DNA of 46,313 bases from Nitrospirota bacterium (GTDB lineage: Bacteria; Nitrospirota; Thermodesulfovibrionia; Thermodesulfovibrionales; UBA9159). The position numbers and the translations under genes were made by a program. Shown here piece after piece: positions 26,706 through 46,313 of this stretch (its first letter is position 1; each line of letters starts with the position of its first letter). The notes below the pieces were generated by a model that searched no databases, was not told where the DNA came from, and saw only the letters and a program-made list of their open reading frames with translations. The stretch lies in assembly GCA_021790195.1 (NCBI GenBank), contig JAJYIF010000023.1, positions 1-46,313 on the forward strand, read 5' to 3'.

Positions 26706-26757
26706 CTAGAGTAATAGGAAGAAACTGCGGTTTCATTCACAGTTACAGTTCCCAAGA

Positions 26758-26787: not shown

Positions 26788-26797
26788 AATAAACTCA

Positions 26798-26960: not shown

Positions 26961-26965
26961 TGAAT

Positions 26966-27043: not shown

Positions 27044-27052
27044 ATGAAGGTT

Positions 27053-27083
27053 AAAAGGGGTTGCAGTCGGCGGCCCCTTTTTT
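27053..27083 (+). terminator. Intrinsic terminator after tRNA-Glu
   Basis: AAAAGGGG (27053-27060) pairs with CCCCTTTT (27074-27081) around a 13-base loop, and the T run continues to 27083. It lies ten bases after the tRNA CCA end. Confidence 0.75.
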
Positions 27084-27260: not shown

Positions 27261-27351
27261 TTCAACCGACAATCGATACATTGGCGTCTCAAAAGTCAAT
27301 AGTCAAGCCTGACCCCCATGCCCTCATAGCAGCATGAAGTGAAGATTCGAA

Positions 27352-27750
27352 TTACTTCTGAGCCGCCAGCTTTATTTCAAACTCCCCTATTTTCTTTTCG
27401 AGATCGTCATCGATCTTCAAGAATATTCTATAAGTTCCGAGAGTCTTTATCTGAAATGGTATAAAGGAAAGGTGCATTATCAACCGTTCACCCTTAATGT
27501 TATGAGGGGCTTTTGCGGTAATTGGGCCTAATGGGTTGCCATCTGGTTGTTCAAGTCTGAAAACAATTTCGTTGAATGTGCCTGCTGAGATGTCCCATTT
27601 TGTAATAAGACAGAGTTGCGGCATTATCATAGGCGTCAAAGGAACAACGATGTCGCTTCCATACATGCCTATTATAGATGTTTTACCGCTAACTTCTAAC
27701 CTGACGTCATCACAAATTATCCAGTCAATGAGTTTTGGTTTCTTGCTCAT
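27352..27750 (-). CDS. DUF6941-like protein
   Basis: A 132-residue protein beginning KPKLIDWIICDDVRLEV, then GKTSIIGMYGSDIVVP, with a beta-sandwich-like remainder (FNEIVFRLEQPDGNPLG, LGTYRIFLKIDDDLEKKIGE). The opening pattern xxCDDVRxExxGKxSxIGxY matches DUF6941, a family of unknown function common in accessory regions. The ATG overlaps the stop of the XRE gene by four bases, with AAGGAAC upstream. It is the third gene of the toxin/XRE operon, which suggests co-regulation, though its role there is unknown. Confidence 0.7.
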   Translation of the reverse strand: MSKKPKLIDWIICDDVRLEVSGKTSIIGMYGSDIVVPLTPMIMPQLCLITKWDISAGTFNEIVFRLEQPDGNPLGPITAKAPHNIKGERLIMHLSFIPFQIKTLGTYRIFLKIDDDLEKKIGEFEIKLAAQK

Positions 27751-28250
27751 GGTAGAAGTTCCTTATAATTTACATTGAAAACTTTAGCGAGCTTTTTGTA
27801 TGTTTCTGTGTCAGCCGAATAACCAGGCTTTTCCAAACGGGAGATATTGGGTTGCTTTATGCCAGAAAGGTGTGACAATGTTTTTTGATCCATATTATTT
27901 ATGAGACGGTAATACTTAACACGGTTTAACTTTCCTTTTTTTGCCTGGTCGCGGAGTTCACTGTGCAATTCTTCCTCTGCTTTTTGCAAAGCCATCTTGC
28001 CTTTCTCCGTTGTCGTGTACTTTGCAATGACATCATCAATATCAATCAAATCATCGCAATGATAGGTTATCTCATCAGACGGTACGAAGAACACTAACAC
28101 GCAAGGCTTTGTCATTTCCCGATATGTTGCTGGCTTATGAAAGGGCGCTAATCCACTCGTCTCCGTTGCTAATGTAGTACAGCTGAAATATGTTGGCACG
28201 CCTTTCTGTACTACTAGTACCGCGTTATCTTGCTGTCTTATTTTATTCAT
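27747..28250 (-). CDS. XRE-family HTH protein, probable antitoxin
   Basis: A 167-residue protein. The C-terminal 55 residues form a lambda-repressor-type HTH: MDQKTLSHLSGIKQPNISRL, then TYKKLAKVFNVNYKELLP. The first 100 residues (PTYFSCTTLATETSGLAPFH ...) are unrecognised. They contain the acidic helix LIDIDDVIAKY and a charged helix (KMALQKAEEELHSELRDQAKK). The toxin-first, antitoxin-second order is that of HigBA-like modules. It starts two bases after the toxin stop, with GGAG upstream, and probably represses its own operon through the palindrome at 28646-28665. Confidence 0.75.
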   Translation of the reverse strand: MNKIRQQDNAVLVVQKGVPTYFSCTTLATETSGLAPFHKPATYREMTKPCVLVFFVPSDEITYHCDDLIDIDDVIAKYTTTEKGKMALQKAEEELHSELRDQAKKGKLNRVKYYRLINNMDQKTLSHLSGIKQPNISRLEKPGYSADTETYKKLAKVFNVNYKELLP

Positions 28251-28251
28251 A

Positions 28252-28632
28252 TCATCTCCGAATGCCGGAAATTAGCTTATAGTGTTTCCTGTATGCATCT
28301 TTTATTCGTATGATGTGTAGAGCTTTCTCGTCATATGTATCATCAGTTCTTTCTATTATTTCGCATATAACAACCAATTCAACTTTTTCGTCAACAAAAT
28401 AGAAAACACGATATTTATCGAATTCACTGCATCTCAACTTCCGAACATCAAACCCTTGATCCTTGAGGAACTGAACTGTTTCAGAATTAATAGTTACGTC
28501 ACCAAAGCTATGAGGATAAGGATCAATTTTAAGTTTCTTCAACCTTGCCAGAACCTTGTACCCTAAGCCTTCATCGTCCCGCATAATATATGCGAGAGCC
28601 TCCTCTGCCGGACGTTCAAATTTAACGTCCAT
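28252..28632 (-). CDS. RelE/HigB-like toxin
   Basis: A 126-residue protein with the RelE/ParE-fold layout: an N-terminal helix pair (EEALAYIMRDDEGLGYKVLA), a strand containing VRKLRCSEFDKYRVFYFVDE, and VELVVICEIIERTDD near the end. The R-x-x-Y-R-V-F-Y pattern is typical of ribosome-associated mRNase toxins of this fold. It is first in an operon with an XRE-type protein. The ATG at 28632 lies 12 bases after a TATATT box, leaving a leader of only a few bases, and there is no Shine-Dalgarno sequence. A tight start like this may lower toxin synthesis relative to the antitoxin. Confidence 0.75.
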   Translation of the reverse strand: MDVKFERPAEEALAYIMRDDEGLGYKVLARLKKLKIDPYPHSFGDVTINSETVQFLKDQGFDVRKLRCSEFDKYRVFYFVDEKVELVVICEIIERTDDTYDEKALHIIRIKDAYRKHYKLISGIRR

Positions 28633-28644
28633 GCGGTTGATTAC

Positions 28645-28672
28645 AATATATCACATGTGATATATATGTCAA
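28645..28672 (-). promoter_or_regulatory. Toxin operon promoter with overlapping palindromic operator
   Basis: On the minus strand TTGACA (28667-28672) and TATATT (28645-28650) are 16 bases apart. A perfect 20-bp palindrome ATATATCACATGTGATATAT (28646-28665) fills the spacer and covers most of the -10 box. This is the expected position for autorepression by the HTH antitoxin. Confidence 0.75.
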
Positions 28673-28897
28673 GAAGCTTATGTGGTAGTTATAGCGATCC
28701 GAAGGTACGATATATGGTATACTCACATTGCGGTCTATTTTCATAACAGTTTCAACAATAAAACGCATGTCATTAAGACCTTCGGAAGAGATGCGTTCAT
28801 ATCTCTGAGGACTTTCTCTATCCGTTCTCCGAGCCTCCACAAACAAACCCTCCAAGAAATTTCTCGAACGAAATGAGGCGTGACCCAATAAGCCTCC

Positions 28898-30721
28898 CTA
28901 GATCACTTTTTGTGATCGCTTCGCGCCCAACTTCGAGCCCAACTCCCTCTTTACCGAGTTCAGAACATGGTAGCGTTGCATAATAGCTGTTGTAAGGGCT
29001 TCTTCGGAATATGCGTTTTCTATCTGAAGCTCTGACCACTCCTTGCTGCCTCGAAGCCCCTGAATACCAATAACCGTTTCAACAAGTGCCTGCTCAAACC
29101 AAGCATGGACTGCATCCCGAGCTATATCAGCAATTCCGGGGTAATCGTGAAACTCCTTTGTAAAATGCAAAACCATGTCTGCAAATGCTCGAAAGTCAGC
29201 ATTAATTAATAGAAGGTTTTGATCAGACAAGTATTTTGCCGCGCGATCCTCAATGTCGCCGTATTCACGCGTTCTGTCTTTAATACTTACCCATCTGACT
29301 GTGGGAAAAACATCTGGCTTTGCCTTCTTTGCGGGAATCCCATCAGTCTTTTCGAATACGGCGTAAACATTTCCCCCAGTTCCCCCAGAAGAATTCCTTT
29401 CTCTTTTGGCTCTAGTAGTGGTTTGTGCGCTACCCGCCATACCGCCCCTGGCCAGTTGGTCTGTATCAACAAGAATATTGCCATCCGAAACGGGTTTATA
29501 ACGGCTTATTTTGAAAAGCTCAATTACGTCTTTTAATCGTTCTCGAATTGATTTTGAGTGATCTGTCTCAGTAGCGTCAGCAGCCTTTTCTGCCACGAGT
29601 TCAGCAATCTCTCGCGGAAGCTTTTCCCGAAATTCGGCAGCCCAGTCAGCCCAAGGTAACGACTCATTATCAAGGAGAAGAGCCGTTCTCGCCGTGTTAG
29701 TTGTAAGTCTTGTCATATCATTGTTATGCGGTTCGACATAAATAACAACCTGACGGTAGCCAAATATAACACCAAACTGCTGCAATCTTGACATTCCGGC
29801 TCTCGCTGTCGCTTGTTCATATAGCTCATTCTGATATAAGGCGGCGACGTGCCCTGCGGACTCAATAAATCCTGAGTTGTTTGTTAGCGCTGGTTCATCC
29901 TTCAGAATCCACCAATAAGCAGTGGCGCCAGACAGGTCCACTTTTCCTGATGAGACAGAATGCTGTTTGAGATAGGCCTCTTGACCCGTTAAAGTACGCA
30001 GATAGTTACGATCTTTGTCATTCCTCTCATATTCCCATCCTTCACGAGCCCGAATTGTGACCCCATCAGGAAAACGAAAATACCGGGTATTAATATACTT
30101 GGATATCCACCGAGAAGGAGAAGGTGCCCCCTCAGGAGCCTTCATTGTGCTCTCAGCATCAGACATCCCCAAAAGAACCACCTTTGTCCCATGTTGCACG
30201 ATATTCTCAGGACGGACATAATCATCAATCGGCAGATAATGTCCATACCTTCCGTCAGAATGTTGCCACTGTTTCAATCCATATTGACCACTGTCTTCCT
30301 CGCGAAAGAGATGGATCATTGAACCCTCAGCGTCCTTCCAGGAAAGATATAAAACACCTACGGGATTTCTGGTCGCTGCAGCAATTTTAGCTCCGACACC
30401 ATAGTTGCCAGAAAATGATTGTTGAGAGACCGAAGAGGAAAGCTGATTAATGAAATGGACCATATCTTCTCCACTCATACCGATACCCGTATCGGTAATG
30501 CAGAGTTTTTGGACCCCCTGCATTAAGAAATAAGTCCAATCAACATCCCATATAATCTCTCCGGACTTCCCTGAGCGCTGTATAGCCTCGATTGAATTCT
30601 GGGTGAGCTCTCTGAGAAATTGAAGGGGATGACAATCTTGTCCCAAACGATCGAGAAGGAAACCAATGTTACTTACAGTCATGGCGAGGAAAGCCTTCTC
30701 GCCACCCTTTTGGCGGATCAT
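28898..30721 (-). CDS. Stand-alone GHKL (Hsp90/MORC-like) ATPase
   Basis: A 607-residue protein with a Bergerat ATP-binding fold in the N-terminal third: N-box RELTQNSIEAI near residue 38, G1 box ITDTGIGMS near 75, and G2 box SGNYGVGAKIAAATRNP near 105. The middle third is beta-rich (WWILKDEPALTNNSG, FGYRQVVIYVEPHNNDM). A basic, Gly-rich linker near residue 425 (RAKRERNSSGGTGGN) leads to a helical C-terminal third. There is no HisKA or Hsp90 middle-domain signature, so the nearest analogy is the MORC/Hsp90-like group. ATG 30721 has a perfect AAGGAG six bases upstream. Its neighbours are toxin-antitoxin genes; a defence role is inference only. Confidence 0.75.
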   Translation of the reverse strand: MIRQKGGEKAFLAMTVSNIGFLLDRLGQDCHPLQFLRELTQNSIEAIQRSGKSGEIIWDVDWTYFLMQGVQKLCITDTGIGMSGEDMVHFINQLSSSVSQQSFSGNYGVGAKIAAATRNPVGVLYLSWKDAEGSMIHLFREEDSGQYGLKQWQHSDGRYGHYLPIDDYVRPENIVQHGTKVVLLGMSDAESTMKAPEGAPSPSRWISKYINTRYFRFPDGVTIRAREGWEYERNDKDRNYLRTLTGQEAYLKQHSVSSGKVDLSGATAYWWILKDEPALTNNSGFIESAGHVAALYQNELYEQATARAGMSRLQQFGVIFGYRQVVIYVEPHNNDMTRLTTNTARTALLLDNESLPWADWAAEFREKLPREIAELVAEKAADATETDHSKSIRERLKDVIELFKISRYKPVSDGNILVDTDQLARGGMAGSAQTTTRAKRERNSSGGTGGNVYAVFEKTDGIPAKKAKPDVFPTVRWVSIKDRTREYGDIEDRAAKYLSDQNLLLINADFRAFADMVLHFTKEFHDYPGIADIARDAVHAWFEQALVETVIGIQGLRGSKEWSELQIENAYSEEALTTAIMQRYHVLNSVKRELGSKLGAKRSQKVI

Positions 30722-30822
30722 GATATGCTCCTTTCTTCCGACGGTGGGTATCTAACGACCATCGGAAAGCAAGTTTTTTATCCTCTATTAGAAAGGTGGG
30801 GGCCAAGAGGCTGCGACCTCTT

Positions 30823-30852
30823 AGAATAGAAGATGAATTCATCTTACAACAA
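30823..30852 (-). promoter_or_regulatory. GHKL gene promoter with palindrome centred in the spacer
   Basis: On the minus strand TTGTTG (30847-30852) and TATTCT (30823-30828) are 18 bases apart. The 16-bp perfect palindrome AAGATGAATTCATCTT (30830-30845) is centred in that spacer, leaving one base on each side. This arrangement suggests a repressor or MerR-type activator site. From 30853 to 31019 I see no gene. Confidence 0.5.
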
Positions 30853-31019
30853 ATATTTTTCTAAGGCAAGATAATTCCTTCGTCACAGAGGCAAGCGTAA
30901 CACTTGGCCACGGGGTCTCGCACTCATGCCAGTTTCGAACGGAATTCGTCAGTTATAATAAGGATCTCTTTACTGCCGACTTTCAGGCGCAGTTTACGTC
31001 AGTGAGCAGCAACAACCCC

Positions 31020-31361
31020 TCATCCGCCAGAGCGCTTCGGCCTGTGGCCGATCCTGACCAACTCGTCCATAATCGCACCGCAATGGTCCCCTTGGATCTC
31101 GATTAAGCCGTCCTTAACGGTCCCTCCGGCGCCGAGTTTCGCCTTTAATTGTTTCAGGAGTTTCTCGCACTCGTTAACCGAAAGCTGAAGCCCCTCAATT
31201 ACGGTGACTGACTTGCCGCCCCTGCCCTTCCGGTCGAGGCGTACGATCGTTCTGGATTTTGAGGGACCGCCAGTCGCGGGAAGGTCGCGCCCGGCCGACT
31301 TCTGCTTCCCTATGACCGTCTTGTCCGTTGAATAGACCAGCTTGGAATCGTCTTTAGGCAT
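31020..31361 (-). CDS. yciH: SUI1/YciH family translation initiation factor-like protein
   Basis: A 113-residue homologue of eukaryotic eIF1 and bacterial YciH. The conserved core is RLDRKGRGGKSVTVIEGL, then LKQLKAKLGAGGTVKDGLIE and IQGDH, ending RIGHRPKRSGG. YciH affects fidelity of start-site selection and stress-related translation in E. coli. The N-terminal 40 residues (KLVYSTDKTVIGKQ) match the usual extension. There is no Shine-Dalgarno sequence, but TAAAAT lies six bases upstream of the ATG. It is divergent from the Phd/RelE module. It may mark the return to core genome or lie within the island. Confidence 0.9.
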   Translation of the reverse strand: MPKDDSKLVYSTDKTVIGKQKSAGRDLPATGGPSKSRTIVRLDRKGRGGKSVTVIEGLQLSVNECEKLLKQLKAKLGAGGTVKDGLIEIQGDHCGAIMDELVRIGHRPKRSGG

Positions 31362-31545
31362 AAAGCCATTTTAACACAAGAGCGCCTTCCGAAAAGAAAG
31401 GCAGTCATCGAGGGGTCAACATATTTCTTTAAGCCGCTCATCTCCTTAACCTCCTCTGCCTTCTGACAATGATAACCTACACGTTAACCATCGTCCAGGC
31501 AATTGACTTTCACAAGAATTCTCTCGTCCTCCCATCATAATGAAA

Positions 31546-31575
31546 TTGACATACATGCTATTCTATGTATATAAT
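31546..31575 (+). promoter_or_regulatory. Promoter and probable operator of the Phd/RelE module
   Basis: TTGACA (31546-31551) and TATAAT (31570-31575) are spaced by 18 bases. The spacer holds an inverted repeat ATACAT ... ATGTAT (31551-31556 and 31565-31570), a likely antitoxin-binding site. AGGAGG lies six bases before the ATG at 31599. Confidence 0.65.
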
Positions 31576-31598
31576 TATGTATTAACAGGAGGTCCAAG

Positions 31599-31880
31599 AT
31601 GCTGATCAATTCCGAAAAAATGATACCCGTAACCAAACTGCAGAGAGAGCTGACCAAAAGGCTCCGGGAAGTTGCTGAGAGTAAAGAAGCCTTATATATC
31701 CTGAGGAACAATGAAATGGCGGCGGTCATCCTGTCTGCCGAGGAATATGCGATGCTGAAGAATGCAGAGGAGATCCTCGAACACGTTGAGATATCCGAAA
31801 CAGTGAAGGAGGGGCTGAAAGACTACAACCGCTCCAAAAACATTTCATGGGATAAGATAAAGAAGAAACATGGCTTGTAA
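31599..31880 (+). CDS. Phd/YefM family antitoxin
   Basis: A 93-residue antitoxin. The N-terminal DNA-binding domain reads EKMIPVTKLQRELTKRLREV and continues LYILRNNEMAAVILSAEEYAML, the standard Phd/YefM pattern. The C-terminal 35 residues are the toxin-neutralising tail (KEGLKDYNRSKNISWDKIKK). It overlaps the toxin gene by 11 bases and should repress the shared promoter together with the toxin. A canonical AGGAGG supports the start. Confidence 0.9.
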   Translation: MLINSEKMIPVTKLQRELTKRLREVAESKEALYILRNNEMAAVILSAEEYAMLKNAEEILEHVEISETVKEGLKDYNRSKNISWDKIKKKHGL

Positions 31881-32181
31881 AATAGAGTTCATCCCGAAAG
31901 CACGAGACGACTTTGATGCCCTGGACAAATCCGTAAAAAAAGAAGCTGCAAAGAAGATAGACGGCCTTGCAGTAAATCCCTATCTCGGTCAGCCGCTCGG
32001 CAATAAGTTTGGCATTAACCTGACGGGATTTTACAAGTTGTATATCGCAAGAAAGAAATATCGGATCGTTTACAGGTTGCTCGGGGAGAATGTTATTGAG
32101 GTAGTCGAGATCGTCGGCATTGGCAAGAGAGACAAGGGAGAGATTTATAGACTGGTTGCAAAAAGATTGAGGAAACTGTAA
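31870..32181 (+). CDS. RelE/ParE family toxin
   Basis: A 103-residue toxin. KIEFIPKARDDFDALDKSVK is the opening strand and helix, GNKFGINLTGFYKLYIARKK the central part, and KYRIVYRLLGENVIEVVEIV the closing strands. The GFYKLRI..YRIVYR-like pattern is typical of RelE toxins that cut mRNA on the ribosome. Its start lies inside the antitoxin gene (11-base overlap), the usual order and coupling for Phd/RelE pairs. Confidence 0.9.
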   Translation: MACKIEFIPKARDDFDALDKSVKKEAAKKIDGLAVNPYLGQPLGNKFGINLTGFYKLYIARKKYRIVYRLLGENVIEVVEIVGIGKRDKGEIYRLVAKRLRKL

Positions 32182-32186
32182 GGAGA

Positions 32187-32279
32187 GTGAAACAGACAGA
32201 CATAGGAATTAAAGGGCTAAGAGAAAGCCTGAAGGACTTCGCCAAGACGTGGCGGCTTTCTCTATCAGCCAGGTTCTAG
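32187..32279 (+). CDS. Possible 30-residue ORF after the RelE gene
   Basis: A GTG at 32187 follows AAGGAGA directly after the toxin stop and opens a frame reading KQTDIGIKGLRESLKDFAKT and then WRLSLSARF before TAG. The composition is protein-like, but the ribosome-binding site is too close to the GTG. The same DNA forms a hairpin (32220-32263). It may be the N-terminal stub of a third gene. Low confidence. Confidence 0.2.
   Translation: MKQTDIGIKGLRESLKDFAKTWRLSLSARF
32220..32263 (+). terminator. Stem-loop after the RelE gene, possible terminator
   Basis: AGAGAAAGC pairs with GCTTTCTCT as an outer stem, and CGCCA/TGGCG (5-base loop) as an inner stem stacked on its 3' side. No long U-run follows. 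It is a plausible transcript end for the toxin-antitoxin operon. Confidence 0.4.
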
Positions 32280-32305
32280 ACTCGTCAATGAAGGGAACGC
32301 CAATT

Positions 32306-32353
32306 CTCTACATTAAGCCCTTTGACTATCATGTCAAAGGGCTTAATGTAGAG
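32306..32353. repeat. Perfect 21-bp inverted repeat with six-base loop
   Basis: Bases 32306-32326 are the exact reverse complement of 32333-32353. The arm begins CTCTACATTAAGCCC and ends TTTGAC; the loop is TATCAT. There is no U-tract on either side. It lies in the gap between the Phd/RelE module and the chemoreceptor 3' end. It may act as a bidirectional terminator, an RNA stabiliser or a mobile-element relic. Confidence 0.6.
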
Positions 32354-32428
32354 GCGACTCCTTCATCAGCTTTTGAAGCTGTCCGACCGGTTGGCATTCA
32401 ATGCATCCTCGTTTATGAGCCGCGGCAA

Positions 32429-34741
32429 TCACATGCCTTCCGCCACATTCGGAGGGTTGTCTCCTCCGGCATCCGTCTTGAAGATGCTTATGGATTCCTG
32501 AAGTTTCTTCACCTGCGACATCGTGTCCTCCGACGCACCCTTCATGTCCGTGGAGAGTTTCAGGTTCTCTGCGGCGATCTGCCGCATCTCTTCCATCGCC
32601 TTTACCACCGTATCCCCCACCACCTTCTGCTCTGCCGCGGCATCGGCCGCCTTCTGGGTCATGCTCCGCATCTGCTCAGCGGAATCCACTATCTGCCGCA
32701 GGCCGTTCACCTGCTCCTTAACGGCTATGTTAACCTGATGCACAACCGCCTTCATACTTTCAAGGGCCTCACGGATCTGCCTGCTTCCCGCGGCCTGCTC
32801 TTTGGTCGACAGATCGACCTGCTGCGCGTGTCTGTCCATATTCTCGACGATATTCCTTATGGATCCAGCGCTGTCCGCCTGCCCTTTCGCCGCATCAGCC
32901 ACTTCCCCTGAGGAGTTCTTCATGTCCACTATATAGTTCATGACTTGGCCCGTGGCCTTGCTCAGTTCATCCGCCGACCTTGCGATTCCTTCCATGATCC
33001 GCGAAGTCTCTTTCACTGCCTCGATGATATTATTGAAAGAATCCCGGCTGCTCGTCGCAAGCGCCATGCCGGCCTTGCCTTCGCGGTAAGTCTCCTCCTC
33101 GGCCTTGACCGCAGTCGCGGTCTGCCCCTGCACCTGCTTGATCAGGGACCCGATCTCCTTCGTCGCCTCCATAGAGCGCTCCGCGAGCTTCCGTATCTCG
33201 TCCGCCACGACTGCGAACCCTTTGCCCGCCTCTCCGGCTCGCGCCGCCTCTATAGCCGCGTTCAGGGCCAGGAGGTTGGTCTGGTCCGCGATCTCGTCGA
33301 TCACCTGCACTATGCTTCCTATCTCCTCTGAGCGCTTCGACAGGTCTTCTATGATCGCCATGGTCCTCTCGGTAGTCTTCCCCATGTTCTGAAGACTCTC
33401 CATGCTCTGGTAGATCCCCTTGCCGCCCTGCTCCGCTTCCCGGAAAGAGTCCTGACTAAGCCGGTTCGCAGTCGCAATCTTGCCCGCCACCTCCCTCACG
33501 GTGCGCATCATCTCTTCGATTGTTCCGGAACTCTCCGACACCAGGTGCTTCAGCGACTCGGTACCATTTGATATCTGCTCCACCGACAGCAACATGTTCT
33601 TCACCTTCATCGACGTCTCGCCGACCGATTCGGTCATGAACAAGGTGTTCTTCGAAGACTGCTCAATGGAGCCTATCATTTCCTCGATGGTGGCTGAAGT
33701 CTCCTCCACCGAGGCCGCCATGACGTCCGCGTTCCTGCCCACTTGTTCGATGGACGAAGCGACCTCGCCGATGGTGGCGGAGGTCTCGTCCACATTTACG
33801 GCCAACGCCTCGGTGCTCTTGGCCACTACCGCTATGGAGGCCGCCATAGTCTCCATCGAGTCGGTTGTCTCTTCCATCGCGCCGGCCTCCTTCTCGGCAG
33901 ACACCGCTATCCGGTTGGACCTCTTCGAGATGTCCTCTGCGGCCGACGTCACCCGGCCGGCGGAATCCTTCGTCTGTACGATGAGGCCCTTGAAGTTTCT
34001 CACCATATTCTCCAGGGCGCGCTCCATCGCCCCGATCTCATCGTTCGAATCGACGCTCACCACACTGCTAAGATCGCCCCCGGCAATCTTCTGGACAAAG
34101 CCGGCCATGACGTTGAGCGGGCCTATAATCGACCTCCTCATCATTACAAGAAAAAAGATTAGGCCGGCCGCGATCAATATCGACGCGACCATGAGCGCCC
34201 TGCCGAGGTTGGCGTATTTTACCGCATCCACGTTGCGGTCATGAGCTGCAGACACCATCTGGTCTTCTATGTCCTTCAGCGATTTCTCGACAGCGGAGAA
34301 CGGGACGGAGGATTTCTCCGTGACATTTAGAGTGGCCACGTCCACATACAAGTTTTTACAGTCTTCTATGGTCTTTGCTTCAAGGTCGAAATAGGCCTTT
34401 GTCTGCGCCGCGATATTGTCCCGCAAGTTTGCTGCGATATCCAGTTGCGTTATCTTGTCCAACAGCGCTTTCTTTTGCTGCTCGATCTTTCCTTCCAGGT
34501 CGTTTATCTTATCCACTTCACCCAAAGCGCTGTGGTTTACTGCAAGAATCTCCCCAATACGGATATCGTTGAGCATGTTCTGAACGATGCTGACGGCCTC
34601 GATCCCCTTTGTGGACTTCTGATATATTTCCTCATTGGCCTTCATCAATGAATGGCTTGTGAAGAAAGACAGCAGTATCGCGGTTAGGAGCGCCGCGCTG
34701 ACGACCCAGGCAAGAGCGGTAAACTTACTCTTAATAGTCAC
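32429..34741 (-). CDS. Methyl-accepting chemotaxis protein with extended coiled coil
   Basis: A 770-residue chemoreceptor. TM1 lies at residues 10-30 ([18 protein letters not shown]) and TM2 near 185-205 ([20 protein letters not shown]), with a short periplasmic helical sensor between. HAMP follows ([20 protein letters not shown]). The signalling tip is intact near residue 500 ([20 protein letters not shown]). Between HAMP and the tip there are at least four consecutive 28-residue repeats beginning [30 protein letters not shown] and [10 protein letters not shown], making the cytoplasmic rod longer than in short receptors. The start is GTG 34741 with AAGGAGA seven bases upstream. No che genes are nearby. 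Confidence 0.93.
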
Positions 34742-36285: not shown

Positions 36286-39200
36286 CTAATAGCATGTATT
36301 GCAGCCCGACGAGAAAGCGGGTGTTGCAACACTTGTGACGGAGCTATACGCCGAGTAGTCCGTTTTGCACAACGCTGCACCGCAGGCGCATGGGTTCTTG
36401 TCCAAGTCTTCGCATCGATAGACCCTTGCCCGGTAATTATATGTCGATCCCGGGTTCAACCCCGACTTGTCGATGAACGCCCCGCCCGTGCCTCCCGGAG
36501 CGCTTATCGACGCTATCTCGGACCATATTCCATTGAGCTGTGCCTCAATCGAGATACCGTCGATGCCGCTGTAACCACTCTGGCTGTAGGTCCAGTCCAC
36601 CTCTACGGCCTGACAGCTCACGGCGTGGCTGCCGGTGATGCTTGGAGCGGCAATGCCGGAAGTATAATTGCACTCCGGCGAGCTTGGAGCGGAGTTCGCG
36701 CTAGGGGCCGCCTCCGTGTCGGACCCCGAATTATACGCCACAACTTCATAACAGTAATTTGTCCCTTCCGTAAGGCCGGTGTCGTTATAAGAGGCCGTCA
36801 TAGGCGAAAGAGTGGCGCATCCGACAAAAGGATAAGTTTGACCGCAATAACCCTCCTGATAGGGCTGACTGGTGGCGGCTATCTGTATATATGTCCCGGC
36901 TATACTCGTGCTTCTCAGGATATTGTAATCGCTCGCTCCATAGACTCCGGGCCACAACAAGGTAATCTGCGAGGAAGATGCAATGCTCAGAGTCACCGAC
37001 GGCGCGAGCGGCGTAGTCCTCGCATATTTTTCATTGCTCGGTGCGGACGGGTTGCCTTCGCCGTTTAAGGTATACACCTGATAATAATAGACCTGTCCCG
37101 GATCGAGGCCCGAATCGGTATAGCTCTCCACGTTTGTACCTGTCGTGCCGATCTGTGCATAGGTGCCGCCTGATTTTGTCTTGCGTTGTATCGCATAGCC
37201 CGCGTTATTGTTTACGTGGCTCCAGTTGAGCGACATGCCAGTTGTGCTTATGCCCGAAGGTGCGTTCAGTGCAGGCGCTAAAGGAGTAGTCTCCCTCCAG
37301 CAGTTCGTCGAGCCCGCTGTGCAGCCCGTATTGCTGCACGCAGAGCTTCCCGATCCGTTGATCGCCGCCACGGCGAAGCAGTACGTAGTGGCTTCCGTCA
37401 GGCCGGACAGAACATACTTCGGGCCGCCATAACAATTACTGCATTCGCCCACGCCCGCCTTGCTCCACTGTGTGCAGTCATTATTGCAGTAGTCGTTGCT
37501 GCCCGACCTGGCCCTCCAGTAGAAATTGAATCCCGTCTCTCCAATCACATCATTCCAGTTTGCAGTTATCTGAGTCGTGGAATTCGGCGTCAAGCCCGAT
37601 ATTGCGGGGACCGCCGGTATCGTTCTCACATAGGAGCTCGTGTCACTTGTATACGCAGTATATGATCCGGAGCCATAGGTGGCCCTGGCCCTGTATTTGT
37701 ATCCGTACCCGGCCGTCAAGCCCGTGTCCGTATATGTCAGTGTGGCTGGATTGGTAATAGTTGCGATCTGGGAGTAACCTCCCCAGTTGCCGGCGGTGCC
37801 GTCTCCCCCGGGATCGTCATTAACATTGGCGCTTCTTTCGATCGCGTATCCCGTATATAATCCACCGCCGTTGTTCTGCCAGCTCAGCTGTATCTGGGAA
37901 GACGTTACATTGGACAGCGTAAGAGGGTCCGGCGACGGAGGCGGCACCATCATACACTGTGCATTGCTGTAAACATCCGGGGGAGAACTGAGTCCGTTAG
38001 GGGTTATTGCCGGGAAAGTCGCTATGAAATTATCGACCTGCGCTTTCAGACTGATAGCATTATTCCTCAGGGCGTTCTGGAAGACATAGACCCTTACGGG
38101 CTGCCCTTTAAGATTCGGATCTGTTGCCTCGGCCAGGAGCTTCCAGACGCCGCTTGTCCAAACGTAAGCATATACGGTCGATCCTGAGCGGCTGATTCTT
38201 AATGTGCCTGAGGTATCGCTGGTCGGCATATATGATGTGATGTTACCGGGATTCAGCGGGACGTCACCCACAAAAACGCCGGCCGTATATCCGTTGCCGG
38301 CAGGGTCGACATGACGTTGCACCGCTACCCTCGTCTTGCCGTCGGAGGAGAGATCTACGCGAAAATCCACATAGTAATTCATCCCTTGCAGACCACTATA
38401 TGAAGTGACCTGACCGTTAGGCAGGTTATAGTCGATCTGTGAATCAAAATCGCCCGCAAAAGGCGCAAGATTGTTCAGGCCCATTTGCGACTCATTTGCG
38501 CCCGAAGTGTCGTTCCCGTTGCTCGTCGTATCAAACTCCACAGCTCCGTTTGCCGAGGCAACAGCGGCCGAGCCGTTACCATCGCTGATATTTATGGGGG
38601 GTGTGGTTGAGGGCGTCGATCCCAAATAGCCCGCCTGCCACCACGTCGTGGAGTTTATCCCGCTGCTGAATGTATCATTTATATCGGGATTTGTCCCTCC
38701 CACAGCCGTATTGTATCCCCTTATGATATAGCTGTAAGACACACCCTGGGTAAGGCCGGTGTCTGTAAATGAATTGACATTGTAGGCGAGTCCGGCCCCG
38801 GCTGAAACTGTATTGTAAGTGCCGCCGGTGCAAGTTCCGCCGGTGCACGGGCCGGTACAGTCTTTCCGCTGCACATCGTAGTTAGTGGCCCCGAGAATGT
38901 CGATCCAGTTGGGCTTAAGCGACGTATTGGATACAGGGATAACGGCATTTTGTGTGAGCGTTCCAAGACAGGCCCACACGCCCAGGTCATTGCTGGGGGC
39001 CGATGCTGTGCCGCCGCTGTTCACGGTCGAAGACACTCTGAATTGATAAGCCCAGCCCGGGTTCATGAGAAAGGTGAAAGTCGTCTGTGTCGTACTTCCA
39101 GCAGGCTGCCAATTATTGTTCCAGGAATATCCGCCGATGCAATTGTTTGGGTTCTGATCGGTGCAGGTCGAATACTCGACATTATAGCCGGTTGCTTCGG

Positions 39201-42200
39201 CCACGCTATTCCATGTGATGGTCGCATTGTTGTCGCTGCAGGTGGCGCTCCGGGTCACACTCGAAATGGTCGGCGCTGTTGGAAGCGAAAACGTATAGAC
39301 CGGCGTACTCGGGGCTGAACTGCCGGAGCAGCCGGCCGCATTAACCTGGAAATTATACTCTGTGCCAGGCGTGAGACTGGCAGCCACACATGATGTCCCC
39401 GTTATGCCGACGCAACCGGGAACATTGGTCCATGACGATGGAGTACAGCCCGAAGGCGCCAGACACTCATATTGAAGAGTATAAGAAGTTGCCCCCGTGA
39501 CGCCGTTCCAGTTGACGGTAATAGACGTTGTCTCTATGTCCGAAAAAGGCGTGTTGTTCCACGAGTTGTTCCATGCCGGGGCGGCCGGCAATGTGCAGGC
39601 GTTCACCTGGCTGCTCCACGAGGAATTGCCGTATGAGTCGGTATCGTAAACAGCAAAGTAATATTTGGTTCCGGCCGCAAGCCCCGACGGCGTGCAGCTT
39701 GTAGCGCCAATGCCGGAACAGTTGGTCGGGGTCATAATTGCGGTATATGTCTGAGTCCCATCTGTATTGTATCCCAGCGTATACGAAGTCGCAGACGTCC
39801 CGTTTTGTCCGGGAGGTCCCGGCGCGACAGGTCCGGTGACAGAACTCCACGAGAGAGACATGCTGCCGGTGGTGATGCTTGAAACGTTCACGCTCAGATT
39901 GGCAGGCGAACTCAGCGTTGTTGTAACACCCGCGGTCAGCTTCCTCGACGAGCGGGCCCCTGTGGTCGCTTCTATCCTGTAGCAATAATTGGCGTCTTCC
40001 GATAAGCCGGTATCAGTCCACGAAGCAGCCACGCTTGTCCCCGGACTGAAGGATTTGACGAGGGTCCAGCCGGGGTCAGAGGGTGACGGACACTGTAATA
40101 AACCCGGAAGTACGGCCGGGACTTTCTCAATGTTGACGCCGGTAGTAGCTGTGCACGTATATCCGGAGCCGCAATCGCTGTCCGCGAAACACATGCCGCC
40201 GACGGCAGACCCGTTATAGCATAGTTTTGTATTGTTATGCCATGTCAGATTGACATTATAGTTATTGCTGTAAGTTGTTGCGGCAACGACCGTGAAGGGC
40301 GCCGGGGTCGGCATCACGTACGAGTTCTTCTGCTTCAACACCAAGAAGTCCTGATTCAGGTAGGGGTTCATGGAATAACCGGCTATGAATGCCTCGCCCC
40401 TGTTGTTGACCGCAATAGCGTTCGCAACGTCGTCGCCTCCTGCGCTGCCGGTCAGTCCGGTCAAACAAGTATTCCCGGAGCCGCAATCCGCGCTTTGCGT
40501 GGCCGCCGTGCAAAGCTTGGTGTAATCATTGGAACACCTTGCGCCGTCGAACATCATCGCGTCGAGGACATTGCCCTGAGCATAATCATAAATCACCGAC
40601 ATGATGTCCAGGTTAGAGCCGTTGTATGCATCGCCCGCAACATAGATATATCCCGAAGAATCCATCGCCATGGAACTCACAAGGGCGTCATCGCTGCTCC
40701 GGCTCCGGAAGTCATTCTCCCATATGACCGATCCGTCCGAGGCGGCATAGCGGACGACATGAAAATCATGGCTGTCGCAGTCCGAGCTGGTGCTGCAGGT
40801 CTTGGCCGGGTAATTGGAGCAAGTGGAGGGCGATCCCGCGCAGGTACCCGAGGATACCAGACTCGTGCCTGCCACAACCACGTTGCCGTCAACGGGGTCC
40901 ACCTTTACCGCCTTCGCCTCATCGTCTCCATGGGCCGGGCCGTCATAGAAAGATCTCCACAACACCTGGCCCGTGGAGCCGCTGTATTTTGTGGTGCACC
41001 AATCTTCGTCGGCTACAGCGTTCCAAGCGCAGCTGCCCCATGTTCCGCCGGCCGCTTCACAGGCGCCCTGGGTCGAATACGGCGCGCCGTTGCAGCAGAG
41101 GGCAGAAGCGCAGTCGGACTGGGTCGTAAATGAAGGGTCGGCGCACTGCGCCTTCACAAAACCGGAAGTGTACACATTCCCGTAATTATCCACAGCCAAA
41201 GACGTTGCATGATTGTTTCCATTTCCGGTCCCTGAGTAGATACCGGACCAGATGGTCTGCCCCTTGGACTTGCCGCCGCATTTAGAATACGTTCCTGAGC
41301 ATGTCCCTTCTAACAGCGCCTGGCTGCAGTCCGTGTCCCTGCCGCAGGCCTTATTAGAGTTGCCGGAACAGGCATTGCTGCCGCAGTATTTTGCAATAAA
41401 GAAATCGTCCTGATTGAGCGTGCCGTCGCGGACGTAACCCGCCACAAACACGTTGCCGTCCTGGTCGAAGGCGACTGAGGAGGGACGGTCGTTTCCCTGC
41501 CCCGGTCCGTCGTAACGTGAGATCCAGTTCGAGAGGGACGTGCAATAATCGGGGAACTGACAGTCCGCATCAGAGAGGCAGGAAGTGCCCTGGGAAATGG
41601 CGCACTGTCCTCCGGAGAGATATTTTATGACGTAGATGCCTTCGTTGCCCGTTACGCAGGTATTCCCGGAGCCGCAGTCACTGTCCTGATAACAAACTGT
41701 GGAGGAGTTATTGGAACATACTTTATTCTTGCCGTATCCTGCCACGGCCACATTGTTTGAGCCGTCTATCGACGTGGCTATTGCTACAGGATCGACGTTC
41801 TGCTGGAACGGGTTGTTGAACTGGGACTCCCACAGGGTCATGCTGCCTGAAGAGGGGTAAGCACCGGAATAATTGAGAGTCGAGATCTGGTGCAGATAGA
41901 CAAGTCCGCCCGCGCCCTGCACTTCCGCATAACCCGAGACCAGCGTATTTCCGTTATTGTCTCCCGCTATGCACGCCGCCTCATATTCCCGGTCGACGTC
42001 TCCATAAGTGCCGCTCCATATGAGGCTCATATCCGACCTGTTAAGTTTGGTGGTGTACCACTCGTAGCTCAGCAAGTATGAGGCCCTGTAACCGGTCGCC
42101 ACCGGGTTGTCGTCCGTGCTCGCGGTTATCGCAGTTGCGACTTCGTTGGCGCGGTCCGTTATGCAGTACCCCGATATGCCGGCATTAGTGCAATCAATAT

Positions 42201-44391
42201 TCTTCTTGCACGCGGTTGTCGTTATGGTGTCCGAAGATGAGTCGTAACAGACATAAGCCGAGGCGTTATCGTACAGATAAATGCCGGCAGGCGCGGAAAA
42301 AGATACCACCGTGGTAAGCGCATTGGCCTCGTTGCTGTAATTGGAGTATAGCCCGATGCTCGAATTGTGCGCCCTGACCCTGTAATAATAATTGGTGTTC
42401 GCAGTCAGAGACGGGTCGGTGTCGGTGTAAGAGGAGGCGCCGGCCGACACGGTCGCGGCGACCGCATAGGTCCCGAATTCCCCGAGTTTCCTCTCTATAA
42501 CGAAATCGGTCTCATTCGTTGAATTGTCCTGCCAGCTGAGTCTTATCTTCGTGGCCGCACAGCTCCCAGCGGCTCCTCCGCAGTCGGAATCCTGCGTGCA
42601 GCCCGTAATGTTGTCCGGACACACACCCGCGGAGGCAGTGAGGTCCGTGGGCGGGTTTAGCAGTCCCCGGTCATAATTTATCAAATAGTAATCATAGTCC
42701 TGAGCCGAGTTCGTCCATGCATCGGACCACCCTGCCACATATAAGTTTCCGCATGTGCCGGGCGAGGCACAGTCGGCATCTGTCGCGCAGACAGTGTTGG
42801 GCGCATTGGTGCATGTCATGGAGAAGACCGCTCCAACGGCTTCGTCGTTTTTATGCGCCGCACCGTCAAAGGCTGTCTGCCACAGGAGGTTCCCGTTGGT
42901 CCCCTTGTATTTGGCCGTCAGCCAATCAAAGCCGGCCGTAGACGCGTTATATTCATATCCCATCACAAACACATCGCCCGAGGAGTCCAACACAATCCCG
43001 GAGGCGGTGGCGGAATTGCTGTTGCCAAGTCCGAGTCCTATCGTCTCCCACACCTTTGCGCCCGTGCCACTCGCCCCGTTGTACCTGGCGGCATAGAATC
43101 TGTTTGAGCTGTCGGGGTTCGTTGCATAGCCTGTTATGTATATGTCTCCCGCATTATCGATCAGCATGTCCTTGGGGACATTATCGTAACCGCTGCTGTA
43201 AGTCCATGAACCTATCAGTGTCCCGTTTGTGCCGTTGTACTTCATTGTACGGATGTCGGTGGAGCCGGTGGAATTCATGACATTGCCAGTCACGACGACA
43301 TTGCCCTGCGCGTCCGCCTTTATAATTCGTCGGCTGTCATCTCCGCCAGTCCCCGCTCCGGGGTATCGCTGCGTCCACTGCACTGAGCCGTCTGCGCCGA
43401 TCTTAGCGGTAAAACAATCAAAATTGCTCAGGTTGCAAGTGCCTTTTCCAGACGATTGACAATCAGCATCAGACGAGCAGTTTGTCGAGCTGTCGAGGCT
43501 GCAGATACCTCTCTGCGAATACCCTGCTGCGGCCACAGCGCCGTCGGCGGTCCAGACAAGGGAGGTGAGCACGTCTTTTCCCAGTGGGGTCGCGTCATAT
43601 ATCAGAACCCCGGAGGAATTGAAGCCGGTATCGAGCAAACCCGCAGGCGTGTAGCCGAGAATCAAGAAATTCTCCTGGCCCTGGGGCCCCGTGTGTCCGC
43701 CCACATAAATATCATTGCAGTCGGCGTCCGAAGAGCAGGCGCGGCCCCCGTGGTTGGAACAGACTGAGCCGGAGCAGACCCCTCCCTTTTCCACGGCTAT
43801 CGAGTCGCAGTAAGTGTTCGAAGTCGGCGAGGCCGGGTATGTCTGCTTCCAAAGGACTGAACCGTCCGACGCATTGTATTTGATGACCTCACACTGAAAG
43901 TTGGTCCCGTTGTTCACATGCCCTGCGACAATTACATTGTCGGCCGCGTCCGTGGCCACTGCGCCGATCTGATCGCCCGGCGAGGGAGGCGCCACATTGC
44001 AGGAGCCCGCTCCGCAATCCGCGTCCGCCGAGCAAATCGCCGAGACCGCATTGGAGCACCTGCCGAGGGTGGAAGTCCAGGCTACAGTCGGAGCGCCGGG
44101 GGAAATTGTGCTGATCTTTATGGTGTAAAACTGACTGACTCCCGTCAGGTTCTGCGAGCCCGCGATAACGACATTTCCGTGGGAATCCGCCGTCGCAGCG
44201 ACCGGAAGCTGCTGTCCCGTCTTTGCGTCTCTCAGCTGCCCCGTAATATCTCCGCCCATGCCGTAAGCCGTAAGAGGGAAACCGCCAGATATGAAAAAGA
44301 CAAGGACAAGAAAATATAACCACAGAGGCAAAGAGGCACCTAGAAAAGCCATGACACGTACCGCATGATGCGCGACGCGCAACAAAGACAT
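36286..44391 (-). CDS. Giant secreted protein: beta-propeller repeats, FN3 domains, lectin-like domain, Cys cassettes
   Basis: About 2,700 residues. A signal-like segment near the start reads LWLYFLVLVFFISGG. Two blocks of propeller-like (SBBP-type) repeats such as GNVVVTGNVM, GDIYITGYAT, GNVFVAGYVR and GNVYTSGFVK fill residues about 50-580 and 700-1365. A first FN3 domain separates them, at about 580-690. From about 1370, FN3 domains run to the C-terminus, interrupted at about 1905-2130 by a concanavalin/DUF1349-like domain. At least ten short four-Cys cassettes (for example CYQDSDCGSGNTC) interrupt propeller and FN3 loops. No sorting signal is visible at the C-terminus (SSGCNTCY). It is probably a surface or extracellular protein paired with the upstream cytochrome. 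ATG 44391 best fits the signal; ATG 44463 is also in frame. Confidence 0.8.
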   Translation of the reverse strand: MSLLRVAHHAVRVMAFLGASLPLWLYFLVLVFFISGGFPLTAYGMGGDITGQLRDAKTGQQLPVAATADSHGNVVIAGSQNLTGVSQFYTIKISTISPGAPTVAWTSTLGRCSNAVSAICSADADCGAGSCNVAPPSPGDQIGAVATDAADNVIVAGHVNNGTNFQCEVIKYNASDGSVLWKQTYPASPTSNTYCDSIAVEKGGVCSGSVCSNHGGRACSSDADCNDIYVGGHTGPQGQENFLILGYTPAGLLDTGFNSSGVLIYDATPLGKDVLTSLVWTADGAVAAAGYSQRGICSLDSSTNCSSDADCQSSGKGTCNLSNFDCFTAKIGADGSVQWTQRYPGAGTGGDDSRRIIKADAQGNVVVTGNVMNSTGSTDIRTMKYNGTNGTLIGSWTYSSGYDNVPKDMLIDNAGDIYITGYATNPDSSNRFYAARYNGASGTGAKVWETIGLGLGNSNSATASGIVLDSSGDVFVMGYEYNASTAGFDWLTAKYKGTNGNLLWQTAFDGAAHKNDEAVGAVFSMTCTNAPNTVCATDADCASPGTCGNLYVAGWSDAWTNSAQDYDYYLINYDRGLLNPPTDLTASAGVCPDNITGCTQDSDCGGAAGSCAATKIRLSWQDNSTNETDFVIERKLGEFGTYAVAATVSAGASSYTDTDPSLTANTNYYYRVRAHNSSIGLYSNYSNEANALTTVVSFSAPAGIYLYDNASAYVCYDSSSDTITTTACKKNIDCTNAGISGYCITDRANEVATAITASTDDNPVATGYRASYLLSYEWYTTKLNRSDMSLIWSGTYGDVDREYEAACIAGDNNGNTLVSGYAEVQGAGGLVYLHQISTLNYSGAYPSSGSMTLWESQFNNPFQQNVDPVAIATSIDGSNNVAVAGYGKNKVCSNNSSTVCYQDSDCGSGNTCVTGNEGIYVIKYLSGGQCAISQGTSCLSDADCQFPDYCTSLSNWISRYDGPGQGNDRPSSVAFDQDGNVFVAGYVRDGTLNQDDFFIAKYCGSNACSGNSNKACGRDTDCSQALLEGTCSGTYSKCGGKSKGQTIWSGIYSGTGNGNNHATSLAVDNYGNVYTSGFVKAQCADPSFTTQSDCASALCCNGAPYSTQGACEAAGGTWGSCAWNAVADEDWCTTKYSGSTGQVLWRSFYDGPAHGDDEAKAVKVDPVDGNVVVAGTSLVSSGTCAGSPSTCSNYPAKTCSTSSDCDSHDFHVVRYAASDGSVIWENDFRSRSSDDALVSSMAMDSSGYIYVAGDAYNGSNLDIMSVIYDYAQGNVLDAMMFDGARCSNDYTKLCTAATQSADCGSGNTCLTGLTGSAGGDDVANAIAVNNRGEAFIAGYSMNPYLNQDFLVLKQKNSYVMPTPAPFTVVAATTYSNNYNVNLTWHNNTKLCYNGSAVGGMCFADSDCGSGYTCTATTGVNIEKVPAVLPGLLQCPSPSDPGWTLVKSFSPGTSVAASWTDTGLSEDANYCYRIEATTGARSSRKLTAGVTTTLSSPANLSVNVSSITTGSMSLSWSSVTGPVAPGPPGQNGTSATSYTLGYNTDGTQTYTAIMTPTNCSGIGATSCTPSGLAAGTKYYFAVYDTDSYGNSSWSSQVNACTLPAAPAWNNSWNNTPFSDIETTSITVNWNGVTGATSYTLQYECLAPSGCTPSSWTNVPGCVGITGTSCVAASLTPGTEYNFQVNAAGCSGSSAPSTPVYTFSLPTAPTISSVTRSATCSDNNATITWNSVAEATGYNVEYSTCTDQNPNNCIGGYSWNNNWQPAGSTTQTTFTFLMNPGWAYQFRVSSTVNSGGTASAPSNDLGVWACLGTLTQNAVIPVSNTSLKPNWIDILGATNYDVQRKDCTGPCTGGTCTGGTYNTVSAGAGLAYNVNSFTDTGLTQGVSYSYIIRGYNTAVGGTNPDINDTFSSGINSTTWWQAGYLGSTPSTTPPINISDGNGSAAVASANGAVEFDTTSNGNDTSGANESQMGLNNLAPFAGDFDSQIDYNLPNGQVTSYSGLQGMNYYVDFRVDLSSDGKTRVAVQRHVDPAGNGYTAGVFVGDVPLNPGNITSYMPTSDTSGTLRISRSGSTVYAYVWTSGVWKLLAEATDPNLKGQPVRVYVFQNALRNNAISLKAQVDNFIATFPAITPNGLSSPPDVYSNAQCMMVPPPSPDPLTLSNVTSSQIQLSWQNNGGGLYTGYAIERSANVNDDPGGDGTAGNWGGYSQIATITNPATLTYTDTGLTAGYGYKYRARATYGSGSYTAYTSDTSSYVRTIPAVPAISGLTPNSTTQITANWNDVIGETGFNFYWRARSGSNDYCNNDCTQWSKAGVGECSNCYGGPKYVLSGLTEATTYCFAVAAINGSGSSACSNTGCTAGSTNCWRETTPLAPALNAPSGISTTGMSLNWSHVNNNAGYAIQRKTKSGGTYAQIGTTGTNVESYTDSGLDPGQVYYYQVYTLNGEGNPSAPSNEKYARTTPLAPSVTLSIASSSQITLLWPGVYGASDYNILRSTSIAGTYIQIAATSQPYQEGYCGQTYPFVGCATLSPMTASYNDTGLTEGTNYCYEVVAYNSGSDTEAAPSANSAPSSPECNYTSGIAAPSITGSHAVSCQAVEVDWTYSQSGYSGIDGISIEAQLNGIWSEIASISAPGGTGGAFIDKSGLNPGSTYNYRARVYRCEDLDKNPCACGAALCKTDYSAYSSVTSVATPAFSSGCNTCY

Positions 44392-44570
44392 TTCTTCTCT
44401 TCGTTCCTTTGACTCTTTGACCCTTTGCATTCTTACAATACCGACCACGTTTAATTCATTCATCTTTTTTCAGCGCACCTTCTTGCCCCATTTCACCTCT
44501 TAACCCGTTCTGTCTTTACCTGTTTGACCTTTTACTTTTGACCTCTTTAAACTTCTTGATCTTCTTCCTT

Positions 44571-46313
44571 TTACCACGGCGACTTGATGTTCCAGTAGTT
44601 GTTCGGCCATCCTTCGGGAGTCGGATGGCAATTCGACTGATAGTTCTTGTTGCTGCCTTTAGGAAAACTGCCGTTGTCGTAAGAACCAGCGCCGCTGCTC
44701 GGCTGCCCGCCGGAGGCGACCTGCCCCCTGTGATTGTAATCAAGACAGTTGGTCTGCAGAAGTCTAGGAAGACCTGAATCATGCGGCTGGTGACACTTCG
44801 AACAGGGGTAATTATGCTGTATCGTTGCATCCGCTGTCTTCCAGCCCTTCACTGACTCGTGTATCCTGTTCTTGTCCCTCCATGTGTGGGTCACTCCGTC
44901 CGTGAGATTTGCCTTTGGATGGCAATTCAGGCACAAGCCCGCAAACTGCGAGTCTGTTTCGGATATCGATCCGTTATTGAAAGTGTTCTGGTCTATATGC
45001 ACGGTCTGCAGCGCGCTGGTCGACGGATACTCGTTACTTCTGGACCCCTGTACTCCGCTCGACATCGAAGGTGAATCCTCTTTGTAAGGAGAGGTCAGCC
45101 ACGTGCCTTTCAAAAGGGGCACTCCGTATGCCTGGTTTGTCCCGAGGATAGGGCTTACGCCGTGCGGGTCATGGCAATAAGTGCAAAGACCGTTGATGCT
45201 CTGTTGCGCAGGGGTAATAAGGGAGGACGACGCATGCAAGTGTCCTCCGACGATGGTGTTCTTATTTGCCCTGTAAGTGAAGCGGGACTGGGACGCCTTC
45301 ACTCCCTGCCCGAAACGCGAAGTGTCCTTGTATCCCATTATGGGGTTCGCCACGCCAAAGGTCTCGGAATACCCCCACGGTATTCCCTTGCTCGACCATA
45401 TACAGTTATTGACGTCCGACTGGCAGCTAGTCTGGTCCGTATGTGTGGAACAGGTCCCGGAGCCCGAGCAGGAAGGACGGACGGCGTTCCTGGTCTCATG
45501 ACAGTCGAAGCACTGACCCGCCCCGGCGGCGTAGGGGTTGACCCCCGTGGTATTAGGATTATACGAGGCCGTATAATCCATTGAGTAGCCGCCCCTGTTT
45601 GCCACAGTCTCCTTGAGGTTGCCGCCCCAGTGTCCCACGCTCGTGCACGCAACACCTGCGCTGCAGTCCGCATTCGAAGCGCAGATCTTGAAATTGTCAA
45701 CAGTGCTGTTACATTTTGAGGGGCCGTACGTAGTTATATAACTCGAGGTGTTCCCGACGAGCTTGGAGCCGTGAGAGCTGTGGCAGTCAAAACACTGGAC
45801 ATTGCGTGTAGCGGCCCTCATGTTCTTGCCTGAGAGATCGTTGTCGAGTCCCGTCCCTCCGGTGCTGTCCCACCCGCCTTGATTGGACTTCGCGTTTCCG
45901 TGAGCCGAAAAAGCCTTGGTGAAGTTCCTCGGCGACGTCGTGCACACTCCTGTATCACAGCCTAAATATTCAACCGTTCCCTGCGCGAGGGTCTGGATCT
46001 GGGGAGCGCTCAATGAGCTGCTGTATATGACGACATCGTCTATCAAACCGTTGAAATATTCACCAAATGCCGGGTCCGCACCTATGTAAAGTGCATTCGT
46101 CGTGCTCGGCGAACTATAGGGCACGCTGTTGCTGTTGTCAAGAACTCCATTGATATATATCTTCAGGCCCGTGGAATCCCCTGTGACTGCTATCAGCGTC
46201 CACGCATTCAACGAAATCAGTCCTTTGCTTGAAATGCAACTTCCAACCCCGTTGCTTCCACAGCCCCGATCGAACCATGCCACGGTCCCATTGTTGCTTA
46301 TCCTGAAACGATA
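44571..46313 (-). CDS. LamG-domain multihaem c-type cytochrome (5' partial)
   Basis: The gene runs off the right edge; 580 residues are visible and the true start is outside. The first 100 residues are the end of a LamG/concanavalin-like domain (FRISNNGTVAWFDRG, LKIYINGVLDNS, YFNGLIDDVVIYSSSLS). Then come five CxxCH haem sites: CFDCH twice, CTYCH, CLNCH and CSKCH, mostly followed by H-G or P-H as in doubled-CxxCH cytochromes. Two further sites look damaged: CLDYNH and QSNCH. A Cys cassette (ICASNADCSAGVAC) is inserted between haems. It is probably a periplasmic or outer-surface electron carrier. The next gene on the strand is the giant FN3 protein, after a gap of about 180 bases. Confidence 0.88.
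   Translation of the reverse strand, partial: YRFRISNNGTVAWFDRGCGSNGVGSCISSKGLISLNAWTLIAVTGDSTGLKIYINGVLDNSNSVPYSSPSTTNALYIGADPAFGEYFNGLIDDVVIYSSSLSAPQIQTLAQGTVEYLGCDTGVCTTSPRNFTKAFSAHGNAKSNQGGWDSTGGTGLDNDLSGKNMRAATRNVQCFDCHSSHGSKLVGNTSSYITTYGPSKCNSTVDNFKICASNADCSAGVACTSVGHWGGNLKETVANRGGYSMDYTASYNPNTTGVNPYAAGAGQCFDCHETRNAVRPSCSGSGTCSTHTDQTSCQSDVNNCIWSSKGIPWGYSETFGVANPIMGYKDTSRFGQGVKASQSRFTYRANKNTIVGGHLHASSSLITPAQQSINGLCTYCHDPHGVSPILGTNQAYGVPLLKGTWLTSPYKEDSPSMSSGVQGSRSNEYPSTSALQTVHIDQNTFNNGSISETDSQFAGLCLNCHPKANLTDGVTHTWRDKNRIHESVKGWKTADATIQHNYPCSKCHQPHDSGLPRLLQTNCLDYNHRGQVASGGQPSSGAGSYDNGSFPKGSNKNYQSNCHPTPEGWPNNYWNIKSPW

Follow-up and report, generated by a model that had tools for sequence, protein, structure and literature searches.

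Why does one short, cysteine-rich segment recur in the loops of two unrelated extracellular proteins, and how did it come to lie at so many positions? The 46,313-nt stretch of Nitrospirota DNA analysed here (the window) encodes a giant exported protein of 2725 residues (36286..44463, on the minus strand, as are all features of these two genes located below) with N-terminal propeller-like repeats of the SBBP / delta-60 type and FN3 domains. Beside it lies the C-terminal part of a multihaem cytochrome with a LamG-like domain and CxxCH motifs (44571..46313, open at the contig end). Both contain units of 20-25 residues with four cysteines, which we call type I, and the giant also hosts one insert of a second type. 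The explanation we favour, with a probability of about 0.6, is that type I units are an old, self-contained disulfide microdomain of ~23 residues that exported proteins acquired in frame on many occasions, in exposed loops and in linkers between haems, and then retained. From the sequences compared, its consensus would be [KR]-[VYIL]-C-x7-C-x2-D-x-D-C-x2-G-x2-C. Domain shuffling in bacteria usually involves domains of 50 residues or more. In contrast, a unit of ~23 residues would act here as a part that can be inserted into propellers, FN3 domains, pilus-tip proteins or multihaem cytochromes.

Type I units and their filled and empty sites

An initial annotation of this DNA counted at least ten units in the giant and at least one in the cytochrome. 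We found 12 in the giant ORF and 1 in the adjoining cytochrome ORF, in agreement with those minimum counts, and approximately zero in shuffled sequences. In a six-frame scan of the window the pattern C-x2-[DN]-x-DC occurred ten times in the giant ORF, once in the cytochrome ORF and nowhere else. The core C..D.DC was observed nine times in the giant, compared to 0.01 times per shuffle and a maximum of 1 in 2000 shuffles. The canonical spacing is C-x7-C-x5-C-x5-C, often preceded by [KR]-[VYIL]. Variants include the unit at aa 1310 of the giant, with three additional residues (CTAATQSADC), and that at aa 1215, which reads CSTSSDC. The units at aa 230-249 and 1208-1229 have their fourth cysteine on the upstream side, with none downstream, so that all units still have four. 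About half of the giant's 98 cysteines fall in type I units.

A second operon of the same genome, on contig C33, encodes a 2292-residue cytochrome with 31 CxxCH motifs followed by a 2824-residue giant that is 61% identical to the window giant, and ten type I sites are common to the two giants. The paralogue has a unit too at the sites of unit 1 (aa 136-155 of the window giant, 43999..44058, CSNAVSAICSADADCGAGSC), unit 3 (aa 321-343, 43435..43503), unit 4 (aa 551-571, 42751..42813), unit 5 (aa 615-635, 42559..42621), the long, divergent unit 6 (aa 739-767, 42163..42249), unit 8 (aa 954-974, 41542..41604), unit 9 (aa 1032-1055, 41299..41370), unit 10 (40777..40842, one of the two with the upstream cysteine) and unit 12 (aa 1415-1437, 40153..40221, in an FN3 B-C loop). 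At unit 2 (43717..43776), AVEKGG[unit]NDIYVGG in the window corresponds to AVDGSDNIYVGG in the paralogue, a clean empty junction (AVDGS-DNIYVGG). Unit 7 (aa 916-936, 41656..41718) likewise reads VAGYGKN[unit]VTGNEGIYV against VAGYGKNTSGNDDIYI, again cleanly empty (VAGYGKN-TSGNDDIYI). Unit 11 (aa 1310-1333, 40465..40536), the form with three extra residues, has a relative of the same variant in the paralogue (aa 2383-2406), at an FN3 position that is not homologous. Conversely, the paralogue carries a unit at aa 260-280 where the window giant has none, and its unit near aa 2383 is not in the window giant, in a region where the alignment is less certain.

Empty sites were also found among the cytochromes. 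The cytochrome of contig C13 has units at aa 1141-1162 and 1297-1322 whose sites are empty in that of C33, and GYDGGQGS[unit]YFKTAHKAK in the former corresponds to GYDGGQGSQYFVTALKAK in the latter. The unit of the window cytochrome (aa 201-223, 45645..45713) lies between two CxxCH motifs, CFDCH at 174 and CFDCH at 268. Its site, SSY...GGNLKETVA, is filled in the window and in C33 and empty (ASYASATTNGGILKSTVA) in the cytochrome of G021, a genome from another family of the order; the cytochrome of G002, a genome of the same family but a different genus, lacks the unit as well. Because these outgroup cytochromes have no unit, the polarity is that of gain. The reverse possibility, that the units are ancestral and the empty sites arose by deletion, draws on the ten sites common to both giants, since single-copy losses could then account for the rest. 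However, it conflicts with the outgroup cytochromes, which lack units at alignable sites, and with the mostly lineage-specific sites in PilY1-like proteins described below, and we consider it highly improbable. For the giant itself, a homologue search with the N-terminal half in 60 relatives returned almost only FN3-domain matches, leaving it without an outgroup. Since one genome holds some sites in both states, with and without the unit, microdomain gain is directly testable by swap or deletion.

Host folds and the cysteine frame

The placements first described for these units all held: before DIYVGG for unit 2, before NLYVAG for unit 4, in an FN3 A-B loop for unit 5, and between haem motifs for the unit of the cytochrome. 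The broader proposal, in-frame insertion into loops at many unrelated positions, is borne out by paralogues and outgroups whose homologous sites are empty and by the location of units outside the FN3 core. In an AlphaFold model of the first FN3 domain of the giant (aa 600-718), for which the alignment consisted of the giant's own FN3 domains, the unit lies between strands A and B and forms a short helix at D-S-D-C; pLDDT is 90-97 over most of the core and 47-64 in the cassette. In a second FN3 domain the unit falls between strands B and C and is modelled, with moderate confidence, as short strands at C1, C2 and C4 and a turn ahead of C3. A Foldseek search again assigned the host domain to the FN3 fold. 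With the FN3 strands intact in both models, the units appear as loop excursions, and alignments and models together support the view that type I units are insertions into loops that leave the host folds undisturbed. Neither a cassette in every propeller blade at the same position nor cysteines belonging to the core fold, the two observations that had been named as grounds against insertion, was found.

At the ten sites common to both giants the cysteine frame is retained: 40 of 40 cysteines are kept, compared to 33 of 43 elsewhere, while non-cysteine identity between the giants is 49% inside the shared units and 61% outside them. Retention of cysteines amid such fast drift fits a disulfide frame, and an even, conserved cysteine set is what would be expected of a microdomain with two disulfides. 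The suggestion that the units act as disulfide staples thus receives indirect support from the sequences, with four cysteines per unit and complete conservation at the shared sites. Each unit would close on itself by two disulfides and, with its ends close together, would leave one strand or linker and return to the next as a small covalent knob. Rather than serving catalysis or haem binding, the units may give proteins associated with appendages and electron transfer a surface that is stiffer, adhesive or resistant to proteases.

Spread within the genome and beyond it

Genome-wide, the DNA pattern for C-x2-D-x-D-C gave 29 matches, compared to 3 with a reversed control; the window giant, the paralogous giant and its neighbouring cytochrome account for 18 of the 29. 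A profile of the unit also gave 29 matches in this genome, all in six large exported ORFs, namely the two giants, three cytochrome ORFs (the window's own included) and one PilY1-like ORF; dispersal over many sites is demonstrated. Among 199 genomes of relatives, 53 had a profile match (E <= 0.1), for the most part in ORFs 1300-2100 residues long. Relatives carry type I units mainly in PilY1-like proteins, a label that for 19 of the relatives' proteins rests on conserved C-terminal strands. The PilY1-like set, which comprises these 19 proteins and those of the window genome and Geomonas, contains ~63 units at ~35-40 alignment positions, a few of them common to near relatives and most not. The gain of units would explain some of the differences in length and in cysteine content among such proteins of the order; the giant is an example.

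This distribution bears on the idea that the units are putative metal sites or cytochrome-docking points. The conserved D-x-D and the multihaem cytochrome encoded by the adjoining gene speak for that idea, but the units of relatives are commonest in PilY1-like proteins, not cytochromes, and the D-x-D turn is also found in metal-free knottins. We therefore regard such a role as very unlikely.

In another family of the order the units have expanded independently: one PilY1-like protein of 2108 aa, encoded on contig C4 of genome G089, contains ~11 of type I among a total of 103 cysteines. Large differences in cysteine number were described for myxobacterial PilY1 in a 2026 survey (PMC13190605), and a text search of that survey found no mention of insertions.

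In the phylum sample, 27 of 396 genomes matched the profile at E <= 0.001. Outside the phylum, among the matches listed, units with exact spacing occur in a large protein of Geomonas silvestris and in Parcubacteria, and the myxobacterial matches are mostly tandem cysteine repeats; the taxonomic range is at least this wide. Could loops of secreted proteins have repeatedly evolved the same four-cysteine turn? C-x2-D-x-D-C may be favoured, as it is also found in squash knottins and WAP domains, and the units match unrelated families with the same turn weakly (Squash at E 0.0025, WAP, Dickkopf). Non-cysteine identity among units is 33%, which in segments as short as 20 residues leaves room for convergence, and units do not clearly cluster by genome (overall p 0.26; slightly for the window genome, p 0.04). 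However, a consensus over the whole unit, CSNN-x4-C-x2-DADCGxGNTC, is common across phyla, Geomonas and Parcubacteria included; units appear complete at sites that are otherwise empty; and two units at non-homologous sites match in 54 of 75 bases. Convergence is therefore rather unlikely.

These two units, at aa 1310-1333 of the window giant and aa 2383-2406 of the paralogue, are the best non-homologous pair. They share the three-residue variant in different domains and are identical at 17 of 25 residues, with flanks at chance, and would represent the best case of a cassette copied by itself from one site to a non-homologous one. TCC encodes the serine that follows C1 at 12 of 16 independent sites, compared to 16 of 67 other Cys-Ser pairs. 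Codon identity between units is near chance. A synonymous-resampling DNA score between units reached z 5.7; random host segments averaged z 2.5 with a maximum of 5.1, and for segments surrounding cysteines outside the cassettes z reached 4.5-7.4. As control segments scored equally high, this score was dropped as evidence of copying. With a similar silent-site excess in ordinary host segments, recent spread at the DNA level is not demonstrated. Ten units were folded as DNA and none formed a stable hairpin (z -1.7 to +1.3), no inverted repeats were seen at units, and no consistent target duplication was evident by eye at the insertion junctions.

Would a non-autonomous mobile coding element, like the palindromic elements of Rickettsia, account for in-frame insertion into genes for exported proteins? 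Both involve short in-frame inserts in unrelated genes; Rickettsia elements are ~150 bp of palindromic DNA, whereas type I units are 60-80 nt, not palindromic and confined to exported proteins (PMC10969869). As in Rickettsia, insertion occurred in frame at empty homologous sites of unrelated genes, and the dispersed single copies with clean empty sites, the pair alike in the cassette only and the TCC preference all speak for such an element. Palindromic hairpin DNA and recent near-identical copies were not found among the units, however, silent-site similarity does not exceed the host control, and every detectable copy lies inside an exported ORF, and together these make an element of this kind quite unlikely. 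A related version is also unlikely: a non-palindromic mini coding element of ~70 nt would move or copy in frame into genes for exported proteins, graft a disulfide domain into loops, and have expanded beside a second cassette type in the extracellular cytochromes of one lineage. The proposed spread of a mini-cassette is thus supported as regards in-frame insertion into loops, and not supported as regards a recently copied DNA cassette. In the simplest reading the copies are old; duplication and recombination of short segments, of the ordinary kind, spread them and selection retained them. Under this account of an old microdomain, selection would filter the reading frame, export and loop position, and no dedicated mobile element would be needed.

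PARCELs are another comparable system, with a ~25-residue motif dispersed among membrane and surface proteins, probably by horizontal gene transfer and intragenomic shuffling; unlike type I units, they are tandem and amphipathic and their DNA is palindromic (PMC2996958). Phrase searches of the literature turned up no relevant account of such an insertion.

Named families and a second type of insert

None of the libraries searched names the type I unit. Its nearest named relative, below the cut-off, is TIGR04201 (Myxo_Cys_RPT), built from TraA of Myxococcus (PMC3325183), which shares a length of ~22 residues, the C-x2-D-x-D-C core and a location in secreted proteins. Eleven of 24 units matched it at E up to 10 (best E 5.4e-5). 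Unit 1 scored 17.1 bits against a curated cut-off of 25 bits, its residues 10-22 aligning to profile positions 5-18 with the conserved cysteine core in place. The whole giants and the PilY1-like protein gave no match at E<=1. TraA repeats are largely tandem (the first five of nine; PMC3325183), whereas type I units stand singly inside loops of other domains; host domain sequence separates them and no tandem array was found, with occasional doublets in relatives. The resemblance to Dickkopf-N domains noted in the initial annotation does exist as a weak match, in that 3 of 24 units matched Dickkopf_N (PF04706) below the gathering score with a best E of 0.04, but TIGR04201 is nearer; the whole giant had no Dickkopf_N match. 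The C-x2-D-x-D-C turn is common to type I units and the Pfam families Dickkopf_N, squash inhibitor, WAP, EB and DUF7107 (E 0.0025 to 0.04, the former for the squash inhibitor profile), which have more cysteines and a different disulfide layout. In a search of solved structures with the unit profile, the best matches were engineered knottins at E 0.12.

The second kind of insert, type II, has the form C-x(n)-[YTD]-x-Q-x2-C-x(3-5)-G-x-W and is frequent in cytochromes, with 33 matches in the window genome compared to 0-7 per relative. Several are absent at the same site in a paralogue. The type II insert of the giant (aa 1107-1156, 40996..41145, CADPSFTTQSDC...GACEAAGGTWGSC) is absent from the paralogous giant, and that of the window cytochrome (aa 282-306, 45396..45470, CSGSGTCSTHTDQTSCQSDVNNCIW) is absent from the G021 cytochrome (CFDCH...PWGYSETFG). 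Type II inserts weakly match domain 3 of the phage T4-type baseplate wedge protein gp10 and PSI (E 0.005-0.007), below the cut-off where one is shown, although here they are single inserts in cytochromes; a phage origin or a common small fold is possible, judging from these matches.

Three paralogous, very large multihaem cytochromes (contigs C16, C13 and C33) differ by many type II inserts, some in runs of two or three in succession. The LamG-like coding sequence of the window cytochrome (45955-46313, minus strand) is also where contigs C13 and C16 end. The overlap of C13 with the end of the window is 127 nt long, and C16 is 100% identical to that end over 42 residues; either contig, or both, may precede the window. 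The LamG part, absent from the C33 cytochrome, has ~95% DNA identity between C13 and C16 (420/441), which points to recent spread or conversion of the whole module. Elsewhere in the window, positions 17112-34741 encode a histidine kinase/response regulator/GGDEF fusion, HD-domain regulators, an MshEN-domain protein, a Mg-chelatase-type ATPase and a chemotaxis receptor; with such neighbours, the giant may lie close to genes for surface-pilus or c-di-GMP regulation.
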